DNA of 64,000 nucleotides from Gracilibacillus salinarum (lineage in GTDB: Bacteria > Bacillota > Bacilli > Bacillales > Amphibacillaceae): positions 1,054,001 to 1,118,000 of the forward strand of contig NZ_CP095071.1 in the NCBI RefSeq assembly GCF_022919575.1. Reading direction: 5' to 3'. The translations under genes were made by a program, and so were the position numbers. This document shows, piece by piece, positions 3,637 to 63,893 of this stretch (positions within the stretch are counted from its first letter, which is position 1; every line of letters starts with the position of its first letter). A model generated the notes under the pieces. It was given only the letters and a program-made list of their open reading frames with translations. It was not told the DNA's origin and ran no database searches.

Positions 3637-3815
3637 ATCTCTATGAATGAAATGATTTACTAGTTCACCCGATCCTAACTGACAACATATTAATGTTAGT
3701 AGATACTAACCAAGCATCCGCCTTGAGAGATCTATTGTGCTAGGATACCTCTGTCCAACCACTTCACGTCCCGTGGAAGTCTTACAGACGGTTAGCACCG
3801 TGATAAACTTCGGCT
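3637..3815. repeat. decayed copy of dispersed repeat A joined to a half copy of repeat C
   Basis: The 250 bp between the rpsD terminator and the next gene has no coding signal. About 3738-3771 (GCTAGGATACC...GTCCAACCACTT) is the reverse complement of the right inner arm of repeat A at 14163-14194. 3773-3808 (GGAAGTCTTACAGACGGTTA and on) matches the right half of the hairpin at 32058-32127. Confidence 0.6.
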
Positions 3816-13574: not shown

Positions 13575-13656
13575 TGACGCACTTTTACTCAATCCCACAT
13601 TAGAAAACCAAACATAACTCGCCGGTCCTAATTGTTGTAAATAATTTACAACTTCC

Positions 13657-14256
13657 TATAATATGGATTATGTAAACTAGAGTGTATATCAATGTGGTAA
13701 TTTTGATATACACTATGTGCTTAGCAAAGCTCCGGAAATAGGCTCCGCGTCCTGTGGGCACGGCCTCAGCTAATTTATGAAAGAAAATTCTTTTCTTTCA
13801 TAAATGGATCTTCAGCTCGCGCTGATTCCACGGGAGTCTCCGCCTATTTCCTACGCTTTAGGGAAGTGCTACAACGTATGGAACAGCTAAAAGCAGTGGT
13901 TCTAGGCATTATGTTATTATTCACTCAATTCCTGTTATATATAGTGATGAGTGATCAATATGCTATCTCTTACAAACATTGTGGAGTACCAATCCTAGCG
14001 TAGGCCAACCACGTAGACTCCCGCGGGATTGTGCAGGTGCTGAAGATCCACAACGTCTGCACCTGCGTCTTCTAGTAATGCTTCGAAGTAGGCTTCCTCG
14101 GTGCAAGGCAGCAAAGAAGTAACTCAAGTAGTAGCCTAGCTTCAGCCGTGCCCCGCAGGACGCGGAGTGGTTGGACGAAGCGGTATTCTAGCACATTAAA
14201 TAGCTCAATATGGATGCTTGGCTAGCGATGGCTAGTTTACATAATCCCTATTATAA
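13657..14256. repeat. dispersed repeat A, copy 1 (longest)
   Basis: Non-coding ~600 bp element with inverted ends: TATAATATGGATTATGTAAAC at the left and GTTTACATAATCCCTATTATA at the right. Inside are two large hairpins. One has arms GGAAATAGGC/GCCTATTTCC (about 13734-13852); the other has arms CCAACCAC/GTGGTTGG (about 14004-14194). It lies between two convergent genes. Copies at 16.5, 28.3 and 39.6 kb share ends and inner arms. Confidence 0.85.
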
Positions 14257-14325
14257 GAACTCTACTTCATGTCTGAAATGATTTACTGCTGTTACTCCAC
14301 TTTTATACTTGCCTAGAACATATAA

Positions 14326-14362
14326 AAACCGCAAGGACTCTCGTGTTGTCCTTGCGGTTAAT
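14326..14362 (-). terminator. terminator of the AGCS symporter gene
   Basis: Perfect 12 bp stem AACCGCAAGGAC/GTCCTTGCGGTT followed on the minus strand by TTTTATA. Confidence 0.88.
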
Positions 14363-14378
14363 TGAAATCATTCTTATT

Positions 14379-15809
14379 TTATTTTTGCTTGTTCTCATCC
14401 TGTGCTCCCCACCAGGAAATATTTTTCAATCCCTCTACATTCTTATAGTGGAACACTGGGTCTTTGCCTTGTTTTTTCTGTTGTGTGTAATCACGTAATA
14501 CATCGAAGGCGACTTTACTCAATAACAGAATGGCAATCAAGTTAACCACTGCCATCATAGCCATGAATAAGTCTGCCATATTCCATACCAACTGAATCGA
14601 AGCGAGTGATCCAAACATAACCATTGCCAGAACTACGACACGGTAAACATTCAGCCATATTCCCTTCGGATTCATAAAGCTCACATTTGTTTCACCATAA
14701 TAATAGTTCCCGATCACGGAACTGAATGCAAAGAAGAAAATGACAAACGCCAGGAAGATGGATGCCCATTCCCCTACTTGCGCACTGAGAGCAACTTGTG
14801 TTAACTGGATACCATCAGCTGACGATTGACCAACATTATCGTACAAAATAATAATAAACGCAGTTAAACTACAAATGACAATCGTATCAAAAAATACAGC
14901 CAAAGATTGGACTAAACCTTGCTTAACCGGGTGATTGACACCTGCTGTAGCCGCTGCGTTAGGCGCACTACCCATACCTGCTTCATTGGAGAATAATCCT
15001 CGACGAATACCATACATCATTGCGGCACCCGCTCCTCCACCAAACACTTCTTCTATTCCGAAAGCGTTTTTGATGATGAGCATAAAAACCTCTGGTAATG
15101 CCGTAATATTGGAGAATACGACGTAAAAACCAACGGCCATATAAATAACAGCCATAATTGGCACAATTACACCTGAAACAGTTGCAATACGTTTAATTCC
15201 ACCGAAGATAATAATCCCTGCTAAAATCACTAATACAATGCCTGTCCACACTTTATCGATGTTAAATGCTTCTTCTACAGCGGCAGAAATTGTGTTGGCC
15301 TGCACTGCATTAAATATAAATCCGAATGTAAAGGTGATTAGAATGGAAAAAAGAATACCCATCCATTTTTGCCCCAAGGCTTTCTCCATATAATAAGCTG
15401 GTCCGCCTCGGAAACCATCTTTGTCCGGCACCTTATATACCTGTGCAAGCGTGCTTTCAATAAAAGCTGTCGCCATACCGACTAATGCAATTACCCACAT
15501 CCAAAAGACAGCGCCCGGACCACCAAGCGCAACCGCTAATGCGACACCTGCCAGGTTACCGGTTCCAACTCTTGATGCAATCGAAATACTAAATGCCTGG
15601 AATGCATTGGTACCTTTTTTACCACTTTGCTCGACTGCTTCTTCTGAAAGAACACGAAACATGTCTCCAAATAATCGGAATTGAACAAATTTAGATCGTA
15701 ACGTAAAAAATAATCCTGCTCCAATTAATAAATAAATCAGAACGTAATCCCATAAAACCAAATTTCCCCATTCTACAATTTTGGAGGCAATTTGTTCAAT
15801 AGTACTCAT
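14379..15809 (-). CDS. sodium:alanine/glycine symporter (AGCS family)
   Basis: 476 residues, about ten membrane helices, with family signatures in order: ISIASRVGTGNLAGVALA (~75), GGPAYYMEKALG (~135) and RRGLFSNEAGMGSAPNAAA (~268), the last near the substrate site. It takes up alanine or glycine with Na+ (AlsT/DagA relatives). A GAAAGGGG ribosome site precedes ATG 15809. It is a single-gene unit between two terminators, flanked by repeat A copies on both sides of the two-gene block it forms with the SRPBCC gene. Confidence 0.92.
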   Translation of the reverse strand: MSTIEQIASKIVEWGNLVLWDYVLIYLLIGAGLFFTLRSKFVQFRLFGDMFRVLSEEAVEQSGKKGTNAFQAFSISIASRVGTGNLAGVALAVALGGPGAVFWMWVIALVGMATAFIESTLAQVYKVPDKDGFRGGPAYYMEKALGQKWMGILFSILITFTFGFIFNAVQANTISAAVEEAFNIDKVWTGIVLVILAGIIIFGGIKRIATVSGVIVPIMAVIYMAVGFYVVFSNITALPEVFMLIIKNAFGIEEVFGGGAGAAMMYGIRRGLFSNEAGMGSAPNAAATAGVNHPVKQGLVQSLAVFFDTIVICSLTAFIIILYDNVGQSSADGIQLTQVALSAQVGEWASIFLAFVIFFFAFSSVIGNYYYGETNVSFMNPKGIWLNVYRVVVLAMVMFGSLASIQLVWNMADLFMAMMAVVNLIAILLLSKVAFDVLRDYTQQKKQGKDPVFHYKNVEGLKNISWWGAQDENKQK

Positions 15810-16382: not shown

Positions 16383-16535
16383 AAAATAAATCCCTCCTCA
16401 TCATTTCATATGATCAAAGAACAAAAATCATGCCTATTACCTTAATAGCAGTAGCAGGTTTTGCAACTGTGCGATAAGGGGGAATCCTTACATGATTTGT
16501 CGTGCAGACATCCTCCTACGAATAATATACAACCC

Positions 16536-17036
16536 TATAATATGGATTATGTAAACAAAGGCTGTATTACAAAATGGTCATTTTGATATCGTTTATCTGC
16601 TTAGCAAAGCTCTGGAAATAGGCTCCGCGTCCTGTGGGCACGGGAGTCTCCGCCTATTTCCTACGCTTACGGGAAGTGCTACAACGTATGGAACAGCAAA
16701 TAGCAGTGGTACTTGTTTTTTTTCAATAGCTATTATATAGGCATGAAATCAATATGCTAGCTCTGACAAAAATTGTAGAGTATCAATTCTAGCGTAGGCC
16801 AACCACGGAGACTCCCGCGGAACAGGCAGGCGCTGAAGATCCACAACGTCTGCACCTGTATCTACTCGTAATGCTTCGAAGTAGGGTTCCTCTGTGCAAG
16901 GCAGCAGAGAAGTGATTCGTGTAGCAGCCTAGCTTCAGCCGTACCCCGCAGAACGTGAAGTGGTTGGTAGAAGGTATCATACTACACATAATATTTCAAA
17001 ATCACCACTAAGCCGCTAACATAATCCATATTATAA
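16536..17036. repeat. dispersed repeat A, copy 2
   Basis: ~500 bp copy with the same inverted ends (left TATAATATGGATTATGTAAAC, right CATAATCCATATTATA) and both inner hairpins. It lacks the ~65 bp insert of copy 1: GGGCACGG runs straight into GAGTCTCC. A 66-codon frame inside it (16789-16989) is not believed to be a gene. The remaining ~150 bp between the SRPBCC gene and this copy shows nothing recognisable. Confidence 0.85.
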
Positions 17037-17095
17037 GAATCTATCTTCTTGTTCAGCATTGATTACTCCATGTCAGCACTTTTCTTTCTTATTCG

Positions 17096-18429: not shown

Positions 18430-18660
18430 TCTACACAATAAAAAAACTCCTCCCTAAATAAGGGACGAGTTAAATCGCGGTACCACCCTCGTTACAGCTC
18501 GATTAGAACTGTCACTCAAGGAATTAACGACATAGACCTGCCGTCTTCATTCAACATGAAGAAACTCCGGAACGTAATTCGCCAGACAGATTATTTACTG
18601 ACTCGCACCAACCGTCAGCTCGCTGATAAAGGGAATCTTCTGCTACTTCAAACCATCATC
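18430..18660 (-). promoter_or_regulatory. tyrosine T-box riboswitch of tyrS
   Basis: The minus strand carries the T-box core GGGTGGTACCGCG (about 18490-18478), then a terminator hairpin (AACTCGTCCCTTA / TAGGGAGGAGTT) ending in TTTTTTTATT. Stem I lies upstream with a GGTTGGTGCGAG element. A Tyr codon UAC (18576-18574, in GAATTACGTTCC) sits where the specifier is expected. Uncharged tRNA-Tyr should stabilise the antiterminator and allow tyrS transcription. Confidence 0.92.
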
Positions 18661-18755
18661 ATTTTTGTTATGTTTCATTGTTATTACATTAATAGCATAA
18701 ACAATTGAAAAATGCAATATTTTTTCAACTTTTAAGTAAATTGGATTGACGGCTG

Positions 18756-18794: not shown

Positions 18795-21770
18795 ATGAAT
18801 GCAAAGAATGCAAAAGAATTTTTTCAAAAAACATGGCAGTCGTTTAAAGAATTATGGAATAAACAAGTAATTCAACGTACATCTAGAATCAGTTACCATA
18901 TTATATGGAATATCATATTATTTTTTATCGCAATTGCGCTGGTTGGCGGCTTTTTTGTCGCGGGGCTTGGTGCAGGATATTTCGCTTCCCTGGTGGATGA
19001 TGAAAAGATCCAAAGTGAGGAAGAAATGGCAAGCGCTATCTATAATTATGCAGAAACATCTGAATTATACTTTGCCAATGATGTGTTTCTGTCTGAAGTC
19101 AGTGCAGACCTGCTCCGTGATGAAACTACATTGGACCATGTAAGTACATACGTGCAAAATGCGGTAATCGCAACAGAAGATGAATATTTTAACACGCATA
19201 ACGGCATCGTTCCAAAAGCAGTGTTACGGGCAGTTTTTCAGGAAGTGACAAATGCTTCCGTACAATCAGGTGGTAGTACCTTGACACAACAAATTATCAA
19301 AAATCAAATTCTTACAAATGAAGTATCCTTTGAACGTAAAGCTAAAGAAATGCTACTAGCGATGCGCTTGGAATTATTCTTTGAAAAGGATGAAATATTG
19401 GAAGCATATTTAAATATCGTACCATTTGGACGTAATGCTTCCGGTCAAAATATTGCAGGTATTCAGACTGCTGCAGATGGTATTTTTGGCGTTAATGCTG
19501 ATGAATTAAACTTGCCGCAAGCTGCATTTATCGCTGGGTTACCTCAAAGTCCATCCTACTACACCCCCTTCATTAATGGTGGTGGTCTCAAAAATGAAGA
19601 AGGATTAGAACCAGGTCTAACTCGTATGAAATCCGTACTTAGCAGAATGTTAGAAGCAGGTTACATTAATCAGGATGAGTACCAGAAAGCATTGGAATAT
19701 GACATTGTTGCAGATTTCAAACAGCCGGAAGAGTCACAGTCTGAGAAATACCCTTATTTAATGCAAGAGATCCAAAAGCGGGCAATTGATAAATTAGTAT
19801 ATGTACTCGCTGAGCAAGACGGCTATACAAAAGAAGAAATAGATACAAGTGAAACATTGAAAGAAGAATACGAGATAAAAGCATCGAGAGAAATCAGCAG
19901 CAACGGCTATAAAATTCATTCCACAATTGATAAGGATATCTATGATGCCTTTCAGAAGGTTGCAGCAGAATATAACAACTACGGACAGGATAAGCTGGCA
20001 CGTAATGAGAAAACAAACAAGGCAATTATGGTAGAAGACCCGGAAACTGGAGAGATGGTACAGCTAGGTAAACAACCAGTTCAGGTTGGTAGTGTATTAA
20101 TTGAAAACAGCACAGGTAAAATTATCAGTTTCGTTGGTGGTCGTGATTTTGATACTTCTCAAAAAAACCATGCCACAAGTGTTAACAGACAAAATGGTAG
20201 TACCATGAAACCGTTAGTGGCTTATGCACCGGCAATGGAATGGGGAGTTGTACAGCCTGGATCGATTATTGCGGATGCAGCATGGGCTTATCCTGGAGGG
20301 TACTCTCCAGGAAACTATTCAGGTCGCTTTTATGGACTGACTTCAGTAAGAGAAGCTTTATACCGCTCACACAATGCAACTGCGGTAAAAGTTTACAGTC
20401 AAATCCTAAATCAGAATCCTGTCGAGCAATTTCTATCGAAAATGGGCTTCTCATCTCTCGTAGAAGGAGATGAAGAATATAGATCCATAGTACTCGGCGG
20501 AATCACAAATGGTGTAACCGTCGAGGAAAATACAAATGCTTATGCTACATTTGGTAACATGGGCTCTTTCGTAGAAGATTATATGATTGAAAAAATCGAA
20601 ACAAAAGAAGGCGAAGTGGTTTATCAGCATGAGAGTGAAAAAACAGAAGTATTCAGCCCGCAAACAAGCTATTTAATGCTTGATATGATGCGCGATGTAC
20701 TAACACGTGGTACCGGTACTGCCGGAAGAGCTAATCTTACGAATAAGAGCGTAGACTGGGCAGGCAAAACAGGTACAACCAACAGCTTCAAGGACACTTG
20801 GTTTATTGCAACCAATCCGAATGTTACGTTAGGAAGCTGGATGGGCTATGACTATAATCAACAATTAGACAAAGGATACAGTAGTCGAAACAATACATTC
20901 TGGGCAAAATTAGTAAATGCAGCAACAGAAATCCGTCCTGAACTGATGGCACCATCAAATAAATTTGAAAGTCCCGGGGGTATAGTAACACGTTCGTATT
21001 GTGCTGTATCAGGGTTACTGCCTTCTGAAGAATGCGGTAAGCTTGGCTTAGTCAACACAGATATTTATAATGCGAATTTCGTTCCTACTAAGAAAGACTA
21101 TAGTCTGATTCAGGATTCTTACGCAACGATCGATGACGAAGTTGTGTTAGCAGGTGAAAAAACACCAGATGAATTTTCTGATGGAAATGGCTTTAGTTTC
21201 AATCCTGATTGGCTAAAGGATATGGGCTATACCAAACTAAGCAATATCAAACAATTAACGGCTGGAAAAGGCGGCGCTTGGGAAAAAATTAAATATCCTA
21301 ATGAACAAGAAGTGTCAAATGACGGAAAAGCACCAAGTGCACCTGGTGGATTGAAATTAAATAAGCAGAAATTGTCATGGAGCAAATCGAACAGTTCTGA
21401 TGTAGTTGGTTACCGAATTTACCAGGCAAGTAATCCAGATGACAAAAATTTCAAACGAATCGGTTCCACTACAGAAACTTCATTCACTATTCCAAGCAGT
21501 AAAGCTGTTTATCAGATTCGCGCTGTCGATTATTACGGTCAGGAATCCTCAGGAAGTAATGTAGTCGTACAAGGTGATTTCTCTGAACCTGAACCAGAGC
21601 AAAAAGAAGACAATAAAGAGCAGCCAAACAATAACAATAATGGCAATAAAGAGCAGGAATCGGAGCAAAATAATCAAAACCAGGAACAAAACGATAATGA
21701 GCAAACGGAAGAACAACAACCAAATGAGCAAACTCCAGACACGCAACAAGACAATCAAGATAGCCAATAA
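18795..21770 (+). CDS. class A penicillin-binding protein (PBP1A type) with FN3 domain
   Basis: 991 residues. Short cytoplasmic tail, one membrane helix (~36-63), GT51 transglycosylase with catalytic Glu128 in ATEDEYFNTHNG and GGSTLTQQ (159-166). Penicillin-binding transpeptidase: SxxK Ser469-Lys472 (STMK), SxN 525-527 (SHN), KTG 658-660. A fibronectin III domain follows at ~838-925, then a ~65-residue tail almost purely Glu, Gln, Asn and Asp. It polymerises and cross-links peptidoglycan at the outer face of the membrane. GGGGGATA precedes the ATG. Single-gene unit, divergent from tyrS, with its own strong terminator. Confidence 0.95.
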   Translation: MNAKNAKEFFQKTWQSFKELWNKQVIQRTSRISYHIIWNIILFFIAIALVGGFFVAGLGAGYFASLVDDEKIQSEEEMASAIYNYAETSELYFANDVFLSEVSADLLRDETTLDHVSTYVQNAVIATEDEYFNTHNGIVPKAVLRAVFQEVTNASVQSGGSTLTQQIIKNQILTNEVSFERKAKEMLLAMRLELFFEKDEILEAYLNIVPFGRNASGQNIAGIQTAADGIFGVNADELNLPQAAFIAGLPQSPSYYTPFINGGGLKNEEGLEPGLTRMKSVLSRMLEAGYINQDEYQKALEYDIVADFKQPEESQSEKYPYLMQEIQKRAIDKLVYVLAEQDGYTKEEIDTSETLKEEYEIKASREISSNGYKIHSTIDKDIYDAFQKVAAEYNNYGQDKLARNEKTNKAIMVEDPETGEMVQLGKQPVQVGSVLIENSTGKIISFVGGRDFDTSQKNHATSVNRQNGSTMKPLVAYAPAMEWGVVQPGSIIADAAWAYPGGYSPGNYSGRFYGLTSVREALYRSHNATAVKVYSQILNQNPVEQFLSKMGFSSLVEGDEEYRSIVLGGITNGVTVEENTNAYATFGNMGSFVEDYMIEKIETKEGEVVYQHESEKTEVFSPQTSYLMLDMMRDVLTRGTGTAGRANLTNKSVDWAGKTGTTNSFKDTWFIATNPNVTLGSWMGYDYNQQLDKGYSSRNNTFWAKLVNAATEIRPELMAPSNKFESPGGIVTRSYCAVSGLLPSEECGKLGLVNTDIYNANFVPTKKDYSLIQDSYATIDDEVVLAGEKTPDEFSDGNGFSFNPDWLKDMGYTKLSNIKQLTAGKGGAWEKIKYPNEQEVSNDGKAPSAPGGLKLNKQKLSWSKSNSSDVVGYRIYQASNPDDKNFKRIGSTTETSFTIPSSKAVYQIRAVDYYGQESSGSNVVVQGDFSEPEPEQKEDNKEQPNNNNNGNKEQESEQNNQNQEQNDNEQTEEQQPNEQTPDTQQDNQDSQ

Positions 21771-21773
21771 ACG

Positions 21774-21815
21774 GAAAAACTCTTATCATCTCAATGAGAT
21801 GATAAGAGTTTTTTA
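21774..21815 (+). terminator. terminator of the PBP gene
   Basis: AAAACTCTTATCATCT/AGATGATAAGAGTTTT stem with a short CAATG loop, then TTATTT. Confidence 0.92.
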
Positions 21816-21886
21816 TTTATCAGTACAGAAAATATATAAGTACAGCAATAGAAGTAATCATGCTGAACATGAAAATGGGTTCTTAT

Positions 21887-21924
21887 CAATATGGACGCTT
21901 AGCTAACATAATTCATATTATAAA
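21887..21924. repeat. remnant end of dispersed repeat A
   Basis: The segment CAATATGGACGCTTAGCTAACATAATTCATATTATA, given here only by its span, closely matches the right end of copy 3 (28511-28557). Nothing of the rest of the element is visible. Confidence 0.6.
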
Positions 21925-21951
21925 TAGTTGTATTTCATTTATTTCAATGAG

Positions 21952-21980
21952 GACCGGGCGGGTTATGCCCGTTTTTTTCT
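21952..21980 (+). terminator. orphan terminator-like hairpin
   Basis: CGGGC-GGGTTAT-GCCCG followed by seven T. The PBP gene already has a terminator 140 bp upstream and no gene lies between. Confidence 0.7.
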
Positions 21981-28325: not shown

Positions 28326-28558
28326 TATAATACAGATTATGTATGCTAACTAAGATTGTATAGCCAAATGGTAATTTAGATAGATTTGATATGCTTTGCA
28401 TATGGATTATGTTAACAAAGGCTGTATATTATTTTGATATGGATTGTCTGCTTAGCAAAGCTCCGGAAATAGGCGTTGTTGCCGATGCGGTATCCCAGCA
28501 CAGTAAATATCTCAATATGGATGCTCGGCTAGCAATGGCTAACATAATTCATATTATA
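28326..28558. repeat. dispersed repeat A, copy 3 (internally deleted)
   Basis: Ends like the other copies (TATAATACAGATTATGTA left, CATAATTCATATTATA right), but only ~230 bp long. It jumps from CTTAGCAAAGCTCCGGAAATAGG at 28440-28463 to the right-hand segment GGTATCCCAGCACAGTAAAT. A second left-end-like sequence (CATATGGATTATGTTAACAA) lies at 28399-28418, suggesting a partial duplication of the left end. Confidence 0.75.
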
Positions 28559-28625
28559 GAACCTACTTTCCTATTTAGCATGATTACTTCTAAGACTGTA
28601 CGTATATAATTTCTTTGTTTAGCAC

Positions 28626-28657
28626 AAAAAAACTCCTGAAGATCAGGAGTTTTTTAG
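28626..28657 (-). terminator. aroA terminator
   Basis: AAAAAACTCCTGA/TCAGGAGTTTTTT with a short AGA loop next to the aroA stop. Confidence 0.92.
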
Positions 28658-28658
28658 A

Positions 28659-29723
28659 TTATTTGTTTAATAGCTCGTTCATAAAGTTATGGAATGTCGG
28701 GATATCCATTTGTTGTGCTGAATCAGAAAGTGCTACTGCTGGATCTGGGTGTACTTCAGCCATGACACCATCTGCACCAATAGCTAATGCTGCTTTTGCT
28801 GCCGGCAGTAACAGATCTCTACGTCCAGTAGAATGCGTTACGTCGACCATTACAGGTAAGTGTGTCTCTTGTTTTAGAATTGGCACTGCCGTAATATCCA
28901 ATGTATTTCGTGTTGCTTTCTCATACGTACGGATACCACGTTCACAAAGAATAATTTGTCCATTTCCTTTTGAATTGATGTATTCAGCTGCATTAATGAA
29001 ATCAGAAATAGTCGCAGACATACCGCGTTTTAACAATACTGGTTTATTTGTTTCACCAGCAGCTTTTAACAATTCAAAGTTCTGCATGTTTCGTGCACCG
29101 ATTTGAATAACATCAATGTAATTAACCGCTTCTTCAATATGTGCAGGGTTAACAATTTCACTTACAACTGCTAAACCATATTCGTCCGAAACTTTTTTCA
29201 AGATTTCCAATCCTTCAAATCCTAAACCTTGGAAATCATAAGGAGACGTTCTCGGTTTAAACGCTCCACCACGGATTAATTTAAGCCCTTCTTGTTTAAT
29301 CGCAGAGGCAACTTCTGCCACCTGTTCATAACTCTCCACCGCACATGGGCCAAAAATAAAGTGTTGGTTACCGTCACCAAATGTATCACCATTTATATCA
29401 ATTACAGTATCTTCTGGTTTTTTCTTACGAGATACTAGTAAAGCTTTACTATGATCATCTTCTTGTAATTCAAGACCTGCTTTAAAGATCTCTTTAAATA
29501 AGTGAACGATAGTCGAATTTTCGAACGGGCCATTGTTATGCTTTGTGATTAGATTTAACATATCACGTTCACGCACAGGATCATAGCTTCGGTTCGCACC
29601 TTGTTTCTCTTTTACTTGGCCAGTTTCTTTTACTAGCTCAGCACGTTTGTTAATTAACTCAAGAATTTCTAAGTTAACCTGGTCAAGCTTTCCGCGAAGC
29701 TGATCCAATTGCTCATTACTCAT
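28659..29723 (-). CDS. aroA: chorismate mutase / 3-deoxy-7-phosphoheptulonate synthase
   Basis: 354 residues from ATG 29723 (GGGGGAT upstream; the 33-residue longer frame has no ribosome site). Residues ~1-85 are an AroQ-type chorismate mutase ([23 protein letters not shown]), which in B. subtilis gives feedback sensitivity to chorismate and prephenate. Residues ~95-350 are the DAHP synthase barrel ([39 protein letters not shown]). It makes DAHP from PEP and erythrose-4-phosphate, the first step of the aromatic pathway. Single-gene unit downstream of ccpA as in Bacillus. Confidence 0.96.
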
Positions 29724-39186: not shown

Positions 39187-39311
39187 ATCCTTCATCCTCC
39201 TTCTCGGAAGAAAACACTAAAATGTATTGTAACACTTTTTGTCGCAAATGAAAAATAGCATGCTGTGCAGAAGGAATATTTTTTTGATGGGCTTTGTTTT
39301 GTTACTTAGAA

Positions 39312-39472
39312 TAACGCAAGCGCCATTTAGAAACGCATCAACCGGACAGCATCAACAGAGATAATGGAATCACGGTGAGCATACGCACCGATGATCATTT
39401 TCGCCCAAGGGCATAAGTCGCCTAGTTTCCAGGCGCCGAGTGGACATGGCTGTACTGTTAGAAAACGGAACG
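39312..39472. repeat. dispersed repeat B, copy 1
   Basis: ~160 bp unit sharing GCAAGCGCC, GAATCACGGTGAGC, CGATGAT, AAGTCGCCTAG, GGCGC and GTGGACATGG-type blocks, in the same order, with 43335-43495. Its ends pair (GCGCCATTTAGAAAC with GTTTCCAGGCGC), so a transcript would fold on itself. No coding capacity. Confidence 0.75.
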
Positions 39473-39558
39473 ACAACTTAAAATTTTCTTTCTTACCATA
39501 TAAGAAGATCAGGGCATAACTCGTCGGACCTAATTGATGTAAATAATATGCAGCTCCC

Positions 39559-39986
39559 TATAATATGGATTATGTCAACTAGCTGCTTAGTGGTGATTTT
39601 GAAAGGATTCATGTGCTAGGATGTTTGCTCTACAACTTTTGGAATTGCTAGCATATTGATTGCATCCATAAATATCAGATTTTGAATAACATTATGCCTA
39701 GAACCACTGCTTTTTGCTGTTACATAAGTTGTTACACTTCCCTCAAGTGTAGGAAATAGGCGGAGACTCTCGTGGAATCAGCGCGAGCTGAAGATCCACT
39801 TCATTTGTGCCTGTGTCTTCAAGTATCGCTTCGAAGTGGGCTTCCTCGGCACATGGCAGCACAGATGTATTTCAAGTAGTAGCCGTGCCCAAAGGACGCG
39901 GAGCCTATCTCCAGAGCTTTGCTAAGCAGATAAAATATTTCAAAATGACCACTTTGCAATACAGTCCTGACATTATCCATATTATA
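39559..39986. repeat. dispersed repeat A, copy 4 (inverted orientation)
   Basis: ~430 bp copy running opposite to copies 1-3. Its right part (CCGTGCCC ... GGACGCGGAGCCTAT ... GAGCTTTGCTAAGCAG) is the reverse complement of the left arm of copy 1. Ends TATAATATGGATTATGTCAAC and CATTATCCATATTATAAG. The 50 bp outside its left end (CATAACTCGTCGGACCTAAT and on) also matches the sequence outside copy 1 (13614-13656). Confidence 0.85.
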
Positions 39987-40125
39987 AGAACCCATCTTCC
40001 TATTAAGCATGCTTACAGCCATGATTGTGCTTTCTTTGTAAAAAATGCCTTATACTTGGTACATACTAAATTTTCACTTCGTCGTGCTTCATCATTGCTA
40101 AAATTTCACTTCCCACCATATAAAG

Positions 40126-40184
40126 AAAACCGAACAGAACGATATGTCAACGGATGACATTTTTTCGTTCTGTTCGGTTTGTTG
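40126..40184 (-). terminator. terminator of the ytoP-ytpP unit
   Basis: AAACCGAACAGAACGA/TCGTTCTGTTCGGTTT perfect 16 bp stem; the minus strand continues TTCTTTAT. Confidence 0.88.
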
Positions 40185-43334: not shown

Positions 43335-43495
43335 AGGCGCAAGCGCCCGTTTAGAGACGTAGCGAGTGGAGCGAATCAACTGAGATAAAGGAATCACGGT
43401 GAGCTTGCGAATCGATGATGATTTATCGTAGGGCGATTTCGCGAAGTCGCCTAGTCTCTGGGCGCTGGAGCCGGACGTGGCCGTTTCTGTCAGCG
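43335..43495. repeat. dispersed repeat B, copy 2
   Basis: Better preserved ~160 bp copy of the unit at 39312. The ends pair as AGCGCCC...AGAGAC with GTCTCTGGGCGCT, and an inner hairpin AGGGCGA/TCGCCT closes over TTTCGCGAAG. The arm changes relative to copy 1 (AGAGAC for AGAAAC, GTCTCT for GTTTCC) largely keep the pairing. Confidence 0.78.
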
Positions 43496-43590
43496 AACAT
43501 CATATAGCCCAAAATTTATACTTTCTTGACTTATAAAAAAAGCGGAAATACAGTTGTTTCACACCTCACTGCATTTCAGCCTTCTACTAT

Positions 43591-59654: not shown

Positions 59655-60938
59655 TTAGGCTACTTGCTGTAAGCGAAAATGCGGAATATCATGCAACATC
59701 TTTTCGGGACTAAATGGCACTTTTTTCGTTCCAACTGTAAATAATATGCGAATCAACTTACAACATAGTGCTATCATGGATTGCTTTTTCTTCAACGAAT
59801 TTTCTTTCCTGGTCGTAAAATAACCATATAATGCTTTAAATGCAGGGTTATGATTAATTAAAGGCAACACGACTTTAAACAATAGGGATCGTAATTTAGG
59901 ACATCCCCTCTTCGTAATCACGGTTTGGCCTTTATATTTACCTGACGTAGCTAACTTTAAGTTTAACCCCGCTAACTTAATGATCTGTTCAGGATGAGTA
60001 TACTTGTTTAGATCCCCGGTTTCTGCTAGGAATGAGGCAACGGTTACCTCGCCTATTCCGTTTATATCGGTCATTTCTTTCACACCAGGAATCGGTCTAA
60101 TTAATTCTTTTACCATGTCCAACACTTCATTTATTTTTTGATGGAGGAGGGCATATTGATCCATCAAGGTGTGGATTTTCACCCTCGCCCTCTTTCTTCC
60201 TTCTTTAATCCCAACGGATTCACTTGATACTTCTTTTAGATGGCGGATCTTTTTCAATCCAATTCCGCGTTTCACTTCTTTGCGTATTTCTAGTAGAAGG
60301 TGTTCTTCATCCATTTTGGCTACCTCTTCAGGGAATAAACCTAGTTTTAATAGTTGAATCGATGCTTTCCCTTCCCAATTCGCAAAGACTTTCGTATATT
60401 CTGGATAAAACCGATCCAACCATTGATGAACACGCCCTTGAACAGCTTGAAGATCTTTCATTAACTGCTCATACATATTCATCCCTTCCCGAAGATCTGC
60501 ATAAATGGCTTCCGGTAAGTGAGGATCAGCGTATCGTCCATCTTGAATCAAGCGCGAAATCACTCGAGCGTCTTTTACATCATTCTTCGTTGGCGAATTA
60601 TCATCCAGCTCTTTTGACTTCTTCACGTGTGCCGGATTAACCACCACTACTTTATATTGTTTTTCCACTAACCAATAGGCGAGTGGCAGCCAATAGTGGC
60701 CGGTAGGTTCCATACCGATGATCCAATCACTTTTATTGTGCTGTCCCGCTAACTCATTTCTCCAACACTCGAATCGTTGAAAGCCTTCCAAACTATTGTC
60801 AAAGTACAGCACTTTTCCAAATTGTATGCCTCGGTAATCTTGAGCGCGAGCAACATGCCTTTCTTTGGCTATATCCACTCCAATAATTAGAGTTTGTTCA
60901 GACAGTTGTAATATCTTTTCATTTTGTTTATAATGCAT
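59655..60938 (-). CDS. IS110-family transposase (DEDD + Tnp20)
   Basis: 427 residues from ATG 60938, preceded by AAGGAGG; the frame to 60992 lacks a signal. N-terminal RuvC-like DEDD domain (LIIGVDIAKERHVAR, Asp22; GMEPTGHYWLPLAYWL; DARVISRLI), helical middle, and C-terminal Transposase_20 domain (INGIGEVTVASFLAETGD ... LAGLNLKLATSGKYKGQ) with the candidate nucleophile Ser in ATSGK. This family is guided by a bridge RNA made from its own non-coding end. Apparently intact. Confidence 0.93.
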   Translation of the reverse strand: MHYKQNEKILQLSEQTLIIGVDIAKERHVARAQDYRGIQFGKVLYFDNSLEGFQRFECWRNELAGQHNKSDWIIGMEPTGHYWLPLAYWLVEKQYKVVVVNPAHVKKSKELDDNSPTKNDVKDARVISRLIQDGRYADPHLPEAIYADLREGMNMYEQLMKDLQAVQGRVHQWLDRFYPEYTKVFANWEGKASIQLLKLGLFPEEVAKMDEEHLLLEIRKEVKRGIGLKKIRHLKEVSSESVGIKEGRKRARVKIHTLMDQYALLHQKINEVLDMVKELIRPIPGVKEMTDINGIGEVTVASFLAETGDLNKYTHPEQIIKLAGLNLKLATSGKYKGQTVITKRGCPKLRSLLFKVVLPLINHNPAFKALYGYFTTRKENSLKKKQSMIALCCKLIRILFTVGTKKVPFSPEKMLHDIPHFRLQQVA

Positions 60939-61097
60939 GATAGTCCTCCTTGGTTTATTTAAGGGTCCTTTTTGCTGATCAGCTCTGGACACCTCGTATC
61001 ATACCAAGAGGGCTTTTTTTATTCAATCCTCATTTTGCTTTATTACAGGAATGCTTTCTTTACTCATAAAAAAGTTGCGCAGAAGTACTTGATCAGA

Positions 61098-63604: not shown

Positions 63605-63893
63605 ATGTTCTAAAACGCAAAAAAATCTCCCTTATCCCAAAATGGGACGAGAGAGATTCCCGCGGTACCACCCAACATTAGTGTTGTTAAACACTCACTT
63701 AACATCCTTAACGCGGATTACGACAAAAGCTACTATGCCTTCACTTTTGTAACATCTGAGGCGAGTTCACAAAAGAACAGGAATGGCTCGCACCTACCGC
63801 CATCTCTCTTAACCTGTTTCTTCTATTACTATTCCTCTTCATCGTTCATTCATATATATGAGTACGTTTGTTTTGTCTACTATACTTTCTGAT
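63605..63893 (-). promoter_or_regulatory. leucine T-box riboswitch of leuS
   Basis: Minus strand: stem I with AGGTGCGAGCC element, a specifier loop GAACTCGCC containing the Leu codon CUC (63765-63763), the T-box GGGTGGTACCGCG (about 63676-63664), and terminator CTCTCGTCCCATTTTGGGATAAGGGAG before a T-run (described here by ends only). Uncharged tRNA-Leu should promote leuS read-through. Confidence 0.93.

Follow-up and report, generated by a model that had tools for sequence, protein, structure and literature searches.

The window analysed here comprises 64,000 nucleotides (positions 1054001-1118000 of the single 4,801,263-bp contig of G000, Gracilibacillus salinarum) and contains several copies of a repeat, family A, between its genes. 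Copy 1 lies on the minus strand at 13602-14320, with its 5' end near 14320 beside a host terminator and its 3' end, which has a degenerate terminator hairpin, near 13602. Its inner inverted-repeat core (13657-14255, minus strand) is bounded by TATAATATGGATTATG and CATAATCCCTATTATA and holds two hairpin modules, listed on the plus strand at 13734-13851 (GGAAATAGGC ... GCCTATTTCC) and 13997-14183 (AGCGTAGGCCAACCACG ... GTGGTTGGACGAAGCGG); their bounds were set by eye, and the second is opposite in orientation to the first. The host intrinsic terminator (14324-14359, minus strand) serves the minus-strand gene at 14379-15809 and is also present in a relative of the same genus, G011. The product of this gene is 83% identical to a Saliterribacillus persicus protein and 77% identical to one of Gracilibacillus oryzae. 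Copy 2 (16519-17092, minus strand; core 16536-17035) lacks the 3' terminator part, and copy 3 (28326-28621, minus strand) is a deletion derivative with a large internal loss; the corresponding host terminators start at about 17097 and 28625, respectively. Copy 4 occupies 39501-40036 on the minus strand, its core (39559-39986) being flipped relative to copies 1 and 2. Another deletion derivative (21812-21977, plus strand) keeps both outer ends and almost no core, and lies directly 3' of the terminator behind the gene at 18795-21770. A fragment with no strand assigned is located at 3723-3776.

Two other repeat families accompany family A. Family B repeats, of type GCGCAAGCGCC..., are found on the minus strand at 39315-39501, adjoining copy 4 and starting with the 5' end motif common to family A, and at 43336-43534, directly after a T-run. 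The latter is 98.5% identical to the probe copy and thus was perhaps active recently. A family C remnant (40049-40124, minus strand) lies on the 5' side of copy 4, giving the array C-A-B. The window also contains two T-box leaders on the minus strand (18458-18668 and 63640-63851).

A sequence-only reading of this DNA had listed four copies of family A and two remnants, and all six are present in the window sequence. It had described them as intergenic, non-coding and differing by clean internal deletions. Such deletions were observed, the placement is intergenic with sites that differ between the two relatives, and no convincing protein was found among the open reading frames of at least 90 aa in or touching the copies. 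Two of these frames overlap a copy (39807-40157, 116 aa, GTG; 21574-21906, 110 aa, GTG) and one meets copy 3 by a few bases (28615-29106, 163 aa, TTG); we judged all three spurious. Two points of that reading had to be corrected. The TATAATATGGATTATG ends are not the termini of the element, since conserved sequence runs on beyond both of them, and copy 4, called inverted, is inverted in its core, while its outer ends are oriented as in copies 1 and 2.

The earlier count of at least four copies in 64 kb is real, and the element is far commoner genome-wide. The terminal motif, allowing up to 2 mismatches, occurred 264 times forward and 275 times in reverse (539 in total) in the 4.8-Mb chromosome of G000, as compared to 1 + 1 = 2 matches for the same pattern read backwards. 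With two end motifs per full element, this corresponds to about 270 elements. With copy 2 as the query, at least 40 separate long matches and many partial ones were obtained when 40 of 441 first-look candidates were scored. A 384-kb piece of G000 (8% of the genome) contained 41 hit clusters covering 16.5 kb, or 4.3%; in a 400-kb piece of G011 there were 37 clusters (3.0%), with 379 first-look candidates in the whole genome.

The anatomy of the full element is well supported. We compared the 27 loci, among 30 fetched, that have both inverted ends (window copy 2 included). Many of these and of the window copies are conserved outside the inverted repeats, so that the full element measures about 0.6-0.75 kb and the unit reported before is its inverted-repeat core only. 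On the A side, about 60 nt (ATAAGAAAAACCGGGCATAACCCGCCCGGTCCTAATTGAC...; 27 ends) read on the reverse strand as a terminator-like hairpin followed by a T-run. The B side reads ...CATGATTACTGCTGTGACTGTACTTATATACTTTCTTGACTGATA (40 ends), and in many cases it is followed by an A-run and a GC hairpin whose sequence varies, which together are the host terminator. In the sense strand the order is thus gene, host terminator, element 5' end (about ATnAGTCAAGAAAGTATA), core, and a 3' end (about ...GGTTTTTCTTA, also given as TTTTCTTA) with a terminator-like hairpin of its own. The inverted ends of the core (about 20 bp, TATAATATGG type) are internal, and the two outer ends are unlike each other.

The position of the element relative to genes was examined at 24 B (5') ends found by similarity in the 384-kb piece of G000. 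The upstream gene ran in the same sense at all 24, as compared to 1031 of 2000 random intergenic points on random strands. Because only 81 of the 310 called genes of this piece are on the plus strand, a strand-matched control was added; here 6389 of 9600 points (67%) were co-oriented, and none of 400 sets of 24 was fully so. A strict finder detected an intrinsic terminator at 12 of the 24 ends, against 94 of 1500 (6%) random intergenic points and 283 of 1492 (19%) distance-matched points behind random gene ends. This finder had been revised once, to longer loops and another tail rule, from a first version, which had flagged 4 of the 24 ends and 75 among 2000 random points. By eye, several ends that failed it showed a terminator with an out-of-range loop, an intron or another repeat's end, and at least one (segment 371801) had none of these. 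The 5' end of the element thus follows a co-oriented gene and often the intrinsic terminator of that gene.

G011 is collinear with G000 over the compared pieces. Blocks longer than 1500 bp are 83-93% identical, and about five blocks, one of them the rRNA operon region, reach 96-98%. Where a host terminator could be matched in both genomes, the sequences usually diverge at the T-run (among the matches listed), so these terminators are older than the elements behind them. We found 19 insertion differences of all kinds with nearly closed flanks. Two empty sites could be read closely, one for a 201-bp family B unit (segment 98362) and one for a family A unit (segment 149454). No target-site duplication is apparent at either site, where about 3 nt could hide in A/T runs. 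An unrelated MITE-like repeat in the same list served as an internal control, and three copies of it do have a 5-bp TTTAT (ATAAA) duplication. In G000 this repeat is located at about 1234294-1234434, 1307059-1307348 and 1324673-1324811 (segment coordinates 200294, 273059 and 290673) and is absent there in G011; its duplications presumably resemble those of bcr1. True empty sites are few, since elsewhere the shared sites of G011 hold another family or a remnant, and at several orthologous sites the difference may stem from recombinational replacement instead of fresh insertion. At about 1297270-1297927 of G000 (segment 263269), tandem repeats of about 36 bp (CGCCTGAAGTTACCCTATCTTCATGCGTTGGGCGTT) lie beside a terminator; the G011 version is shorter and degenerate.

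Families A, B and C have a common 5' end, and their units abut. Five tandem junctions in G000 (C-B, A-B twice, C-A and B-A) are joined within -3 to +3 nt. The 5' motif GTCAAGAAAGTATAWA, allowing up to 1 mismatch, was found 95 times in G000 as compared to 2 in the control. It is also enriched in genomes of other genera, namely G033 (81 vs. 6), G080 (26 vs. 3) and G029 (24 vs. 1), mostly as GTTAAGAAAGTATAAA. The bodies behind it differ there and include A-like hairpins (G033) and C-like units (G080). Among 25 distinct motif contexts printed, 13 have five T within the preceding 14 nt and 12 do not; several of these 12 T-poor contexts follow a family B- or C-like end. In G029 the motif is not clearly behind terminators. 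With 5 candidates scored in each genome, at least 51 of 101 genomes (G000 included) matched the full query at E <= 0.001. Apart from those of G000 and G011, the matches listed cover parts of the element, mostly hairpin parts, and a module-like hairpin is found in Gracilibacillus oryzae, Sutcliffiella horikoshii, Bacillus horikoshii, Planococcus glaciei and P. chinensis, among others. Carriage by phages or plasmids was considered and rejected: phages gave no match and viral contigs 11 exact motif matches, and the plasmid matches were a single one of 55 bases to family A in a Radiobacillus plasmid and none to family B. It is conceivable, if somewhat doubtful, that these families are "terminator cassettes" of the Bacillales, with a common 5' end of about 16 nt, interchangeable bodies and a 3' terminator, which a putative enzyme would add behind intrinsic terminators in the sense of the gene, so that head-to-tail arrays form, comparable to integron cassettes behind attC hairpins.

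Full cores contain two hairpin modules in opposite orientation, and hairpins of REP/BIME elements are often paired in this way. One element (L013, core and flanks) was predicted to fold mainly into one long hairpin of -380 kcal/mol (z = -30.8, 20 shuffles). By eye, the copies are mosaics that variously combine long or short hairpin loops with one of two types of initial 60 nt. Among 50 distinct cores (at least 330 nt long), 23 run one way with respect to the outer ends, 24 the other way, and 3 are unclear; on a tree of 39 cores, orientation changed 14 times as compared to a mean of 13.3 with shuffled labels. At two sites common to G000 and G011, the A flank and the site agree and the core is reversed. 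The cores there, and at one site also the B flank, are too divergent for a simple flip, so we favour recombination at the inverted repeats, which would exchange or invert the core, over a regulated switch. A phase-variation switch with the core as an invertible promoter segment is not favoured; the candidate promoter, TTGACT-TATAAT with a 19-nt gap in the A flank, was seen by eye only, and this gap is long for a sigma-A promoter. Both genomes have core pieces at 20 shared sites; similarity there was stronger on the plus strand at 11, on the minus strand at 8 and on neither at 1. These counts alone do not prove on-site inversion, because by eye at least one of the 8 minus-strand sites (segment 245426) is not the same insertion and because the arms are alike when inverted.

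The heart of the module is fixed (AGACTCC...CGGAAAGCG), and its arms vary between loci yet pair within each locus. In 55 distinct arm pairs of G000, 8.93 of 10 positions match, as compared to 7.09 after shuffling (highest of 200 shuffles, 7.64). The values are 7.38 vs. 6.25 (highest 7.31) for 13 pairs of G011 and 8.45 vs. 6.72 (highest 7.26) for 31 pairs of other loci, among which a few with poor pairing (e.g. L079, L107, L121) may have matched by chance. The covariance check proposed with the earlier reading was run on 13 modules of similar length (14 were found, and the shorter L036 was left out), 5 of them near relatives from one genome, G033. The differences between arms keep the pairing: 22 of 41 pairs have changed on both sides, and 95.5% of cells pair as compared to 84.7% after shuffling. 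The covariation score of 0.364 exceeded that of shuffles (0.156) and of slid versions (0.102 or less); the 39 further pair types say little because 61 of 500 shuffles reached this number. Near-palindromes can be corrected by template switching, and the covariation may come partly from this process instead of selection.

Other mobile elements also use family A as a target. When 150 of the 268 RF00029 candidates of G000 were scored, eight group II introns came out, one of them slightly below the cut-off. Seven have a reverse transcriptase, and all eight sit inside family A at fixed points. The four D1D4-4 introns lie 4-8 nt behind a terminator T-run and are directly followed by the element 5' end, and the four D1D4-6 introns lie in the hairpin module at (G/A)CTTCAG^CTA. 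An IS110-type gene (PF02371) gave eight hits in G000. One of them, the window frame at 59655-60992 (minus strand, 445 aa), scores unlike the other seven. In all six copies examined of those seven, the left end is in the module at TAGACT^GATATG; the right end is AATAACT^CCCGCGGG in five and TATACT^CCCGCGGG in the shorter copy L237. At locus L179 (about 4213 kb), an IS200-like transposase gene, a group II intron without a reading frame and a family A element lie back to back. Insertion sequences with one invariant target base in a REP (PMC1525189) and group II introns behind terminator stem-loops (PMC7923331) have been described.

We conclude that the element is real, abundant, mobile in the past and not a classical MITE; the mechanism of its movement is a proposal. 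The repeat first noticed in the window is probably the core of a non-autonomous mobile element that inserts 3' of a terminator T-run, in the sense of the gene, with no visible target duplication. This proposal is based on position, orientation, shared 5' ends, tandem junctions, site differences, the occurrence of both core orientations and arm covariation, all of which were observed. The insertion point would lie right at the 3' edge of the T-run of an intrinsic terminator, and the element would read in the same direction as the gene that this terminator serves. The element's own 3' terminator would leave transcription undisturbed and rebuild the target, and head-to-tail pile-up of units would follow from such a rebuilt end. 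We infer that movement occurs in trans, by an enzyme which reads terminator hairpins as that of group IIC introns does, and that recombination at the inverted ends of the core, about 20 bp long, flips or exchanges it.

RVT_1 and Y1 searches identified no mobilising enzyme, and no autonomous copy was seen in the stretches read. RVT_1 had a match in 3 of 7 genomes tested and Y1_Tnp in 4 of 7, several of them interrupted; G011 had neither, and G015 and G029 also lacked Y1_Tnp. Because both are without a match in the element-rich G011, a group II reverse transcriptase and a Y1 transposase are weakened as movers, and loss of either after amplification is possible. IS110 was rejected as the mover, its ends being unlike those of the element, into which it inserts. 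One could suppose a SINE-like retroelement that is moved in trans by the reverse transcriptase of a terminator-targeting group II intron. The four D1D4-4 introns, located behind a T-run and followed by an AAGAAAG-type 5' end (AGAAAGGACG in L179), agree with this, as does the lack of an apparent target duplication. For group IIC introns, the terminator stem-loop used lies upstream of IBS1 (PMC7923331). The D1D4-4 introns are putative members of this class. Given that G011 has 37 clusters in 400 kb and no RVT_1 match, that no Rfam group II match was obtained in the element stretches scanned, and that the intron may merely use the element as a target, we consider this explanation unlikely. In a REP/RAYT- or IS200-like mechanism, single-stranded DNA would be moved by a Y1 (HUH) transposase binding the end hairpins. 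A hairpin near the 3' end, a hairpin-rich body, the same lack of duplication, the one Y1 gene of G000 and Y1 frames of 254-269 aa in G013 and G014 would suit it. The G000 gene (a 150-aa frame) lies between hairpins unlike the element ends and in our reading looks like a plain IS200, and no RAYT partner was found; together with the genomes that have no Y1 match, this makes the mechanism quite improbable.

The sequence-only reading had proposed a MITE, a large REP-like element or a mobile structured RNA; the last is a possible reading. The first two are right in kind, the element being non-coding, high-copy, intergenic and hairpin-rich. The classical form of a MITE is not borne out, since the inverted repeats are internal, the outer ends are dissimilar and no target duplication is apparent at the two readable empty sites. 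One might rescue it by letting a DDE transposase act on the TATAATATGGATTATG inverted repeats, the outer sequence being an older element into which the core had jumped. Inverted core ends of about 20 bp, both core orientations within the same outer ends and internal deletions speak for this. No core-less outer element was seen in the segment read, the deletion derivative keeping core sequence, and no target duplication is apparent by eye between the core and the outer ends. The autonomous partner suggested earlier did not turn up either: no gene-bearing unit with these ends was found at gap sites with a side longer than 850 bp (384 kb and 400 kb compared), and the transposase families searched over whole genomes were Y1 and IS110. 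The rescue has only a small chance of being right. The other view is that nothing moves today, and that an old 3'-UTR or terminator RNA family was kept by selection on structure and spread by gene conversion. Covariation, co-orientation with genes, mosaic copies and replaced cores at shared sites would fit such a family, but the site differences between two collinear genomes and the tandem arrays with other families speak against it, and we hold it to be rather improbable. Insertion behind terminators accordingly remains our preferred reading.

If so, a single non-coding element that settles at a low-harm site and restores it for the next would account for about 4% of the sampled chromosome. 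One repeat also harbours three unrelated targeted elements (two group II introns and one IS110), so that the idea of repeats as "safe havens" can be tested directly. Should the common 5' end reflect one machinery, there is a new way of moving DNA or RNA in Bacillales to find. A search of the open literature, with subscription papers outside its scope, gave no prior description of the element, of its hairpin core or of three such guests in one repeat family, and the window stretch 39250-40120 had no Rfam covariance-model match up to E = 1.

Family A resembles several known repeats in part. With REP/BIME elements it shares intergenic hairpins, and in REPs, too, IS110 and other IS families insert at one fixed base (PMC1525189). 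Unlike them, its hairpins lie within a 0.6-0.75-kb element that has defined outer ends, a terminator-like end of its own and group II introns as guests. Bacterial MITEs such as Correia, ERIC, Chunjie and QMITE, as described in PMC10969869, are likewise non-coding, high in copy number and present as size variants with inverted repeats. Family A differs from them in its internal inverted repeats, dissimilar outer ends, terminator-linked insertion and lack of an apparent target duplication. The same source describes the SPRITE, BOX and RUP repeats of S. pneumoniae, which are clustered and inserted into one another and of which SPRITE is terminator-like; by description, they differ from units that lie behind host terminators and have a long inverted-repeat core. 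Group IIC introns also lie behind a terminator stem-loop (PMC7923331), whereas the element has no ribozyme match, no reading frame and different ends. Stem-loop repeats are also known in Bacillaceae, namely bcr1 of the Bacillus cereus group and Bhal-1, to which family A is possibly related. Bhal-1 of B. halodurans is 74 bp long and has 36 copies (PMC2267715), and it could be the hairpin module of family A.
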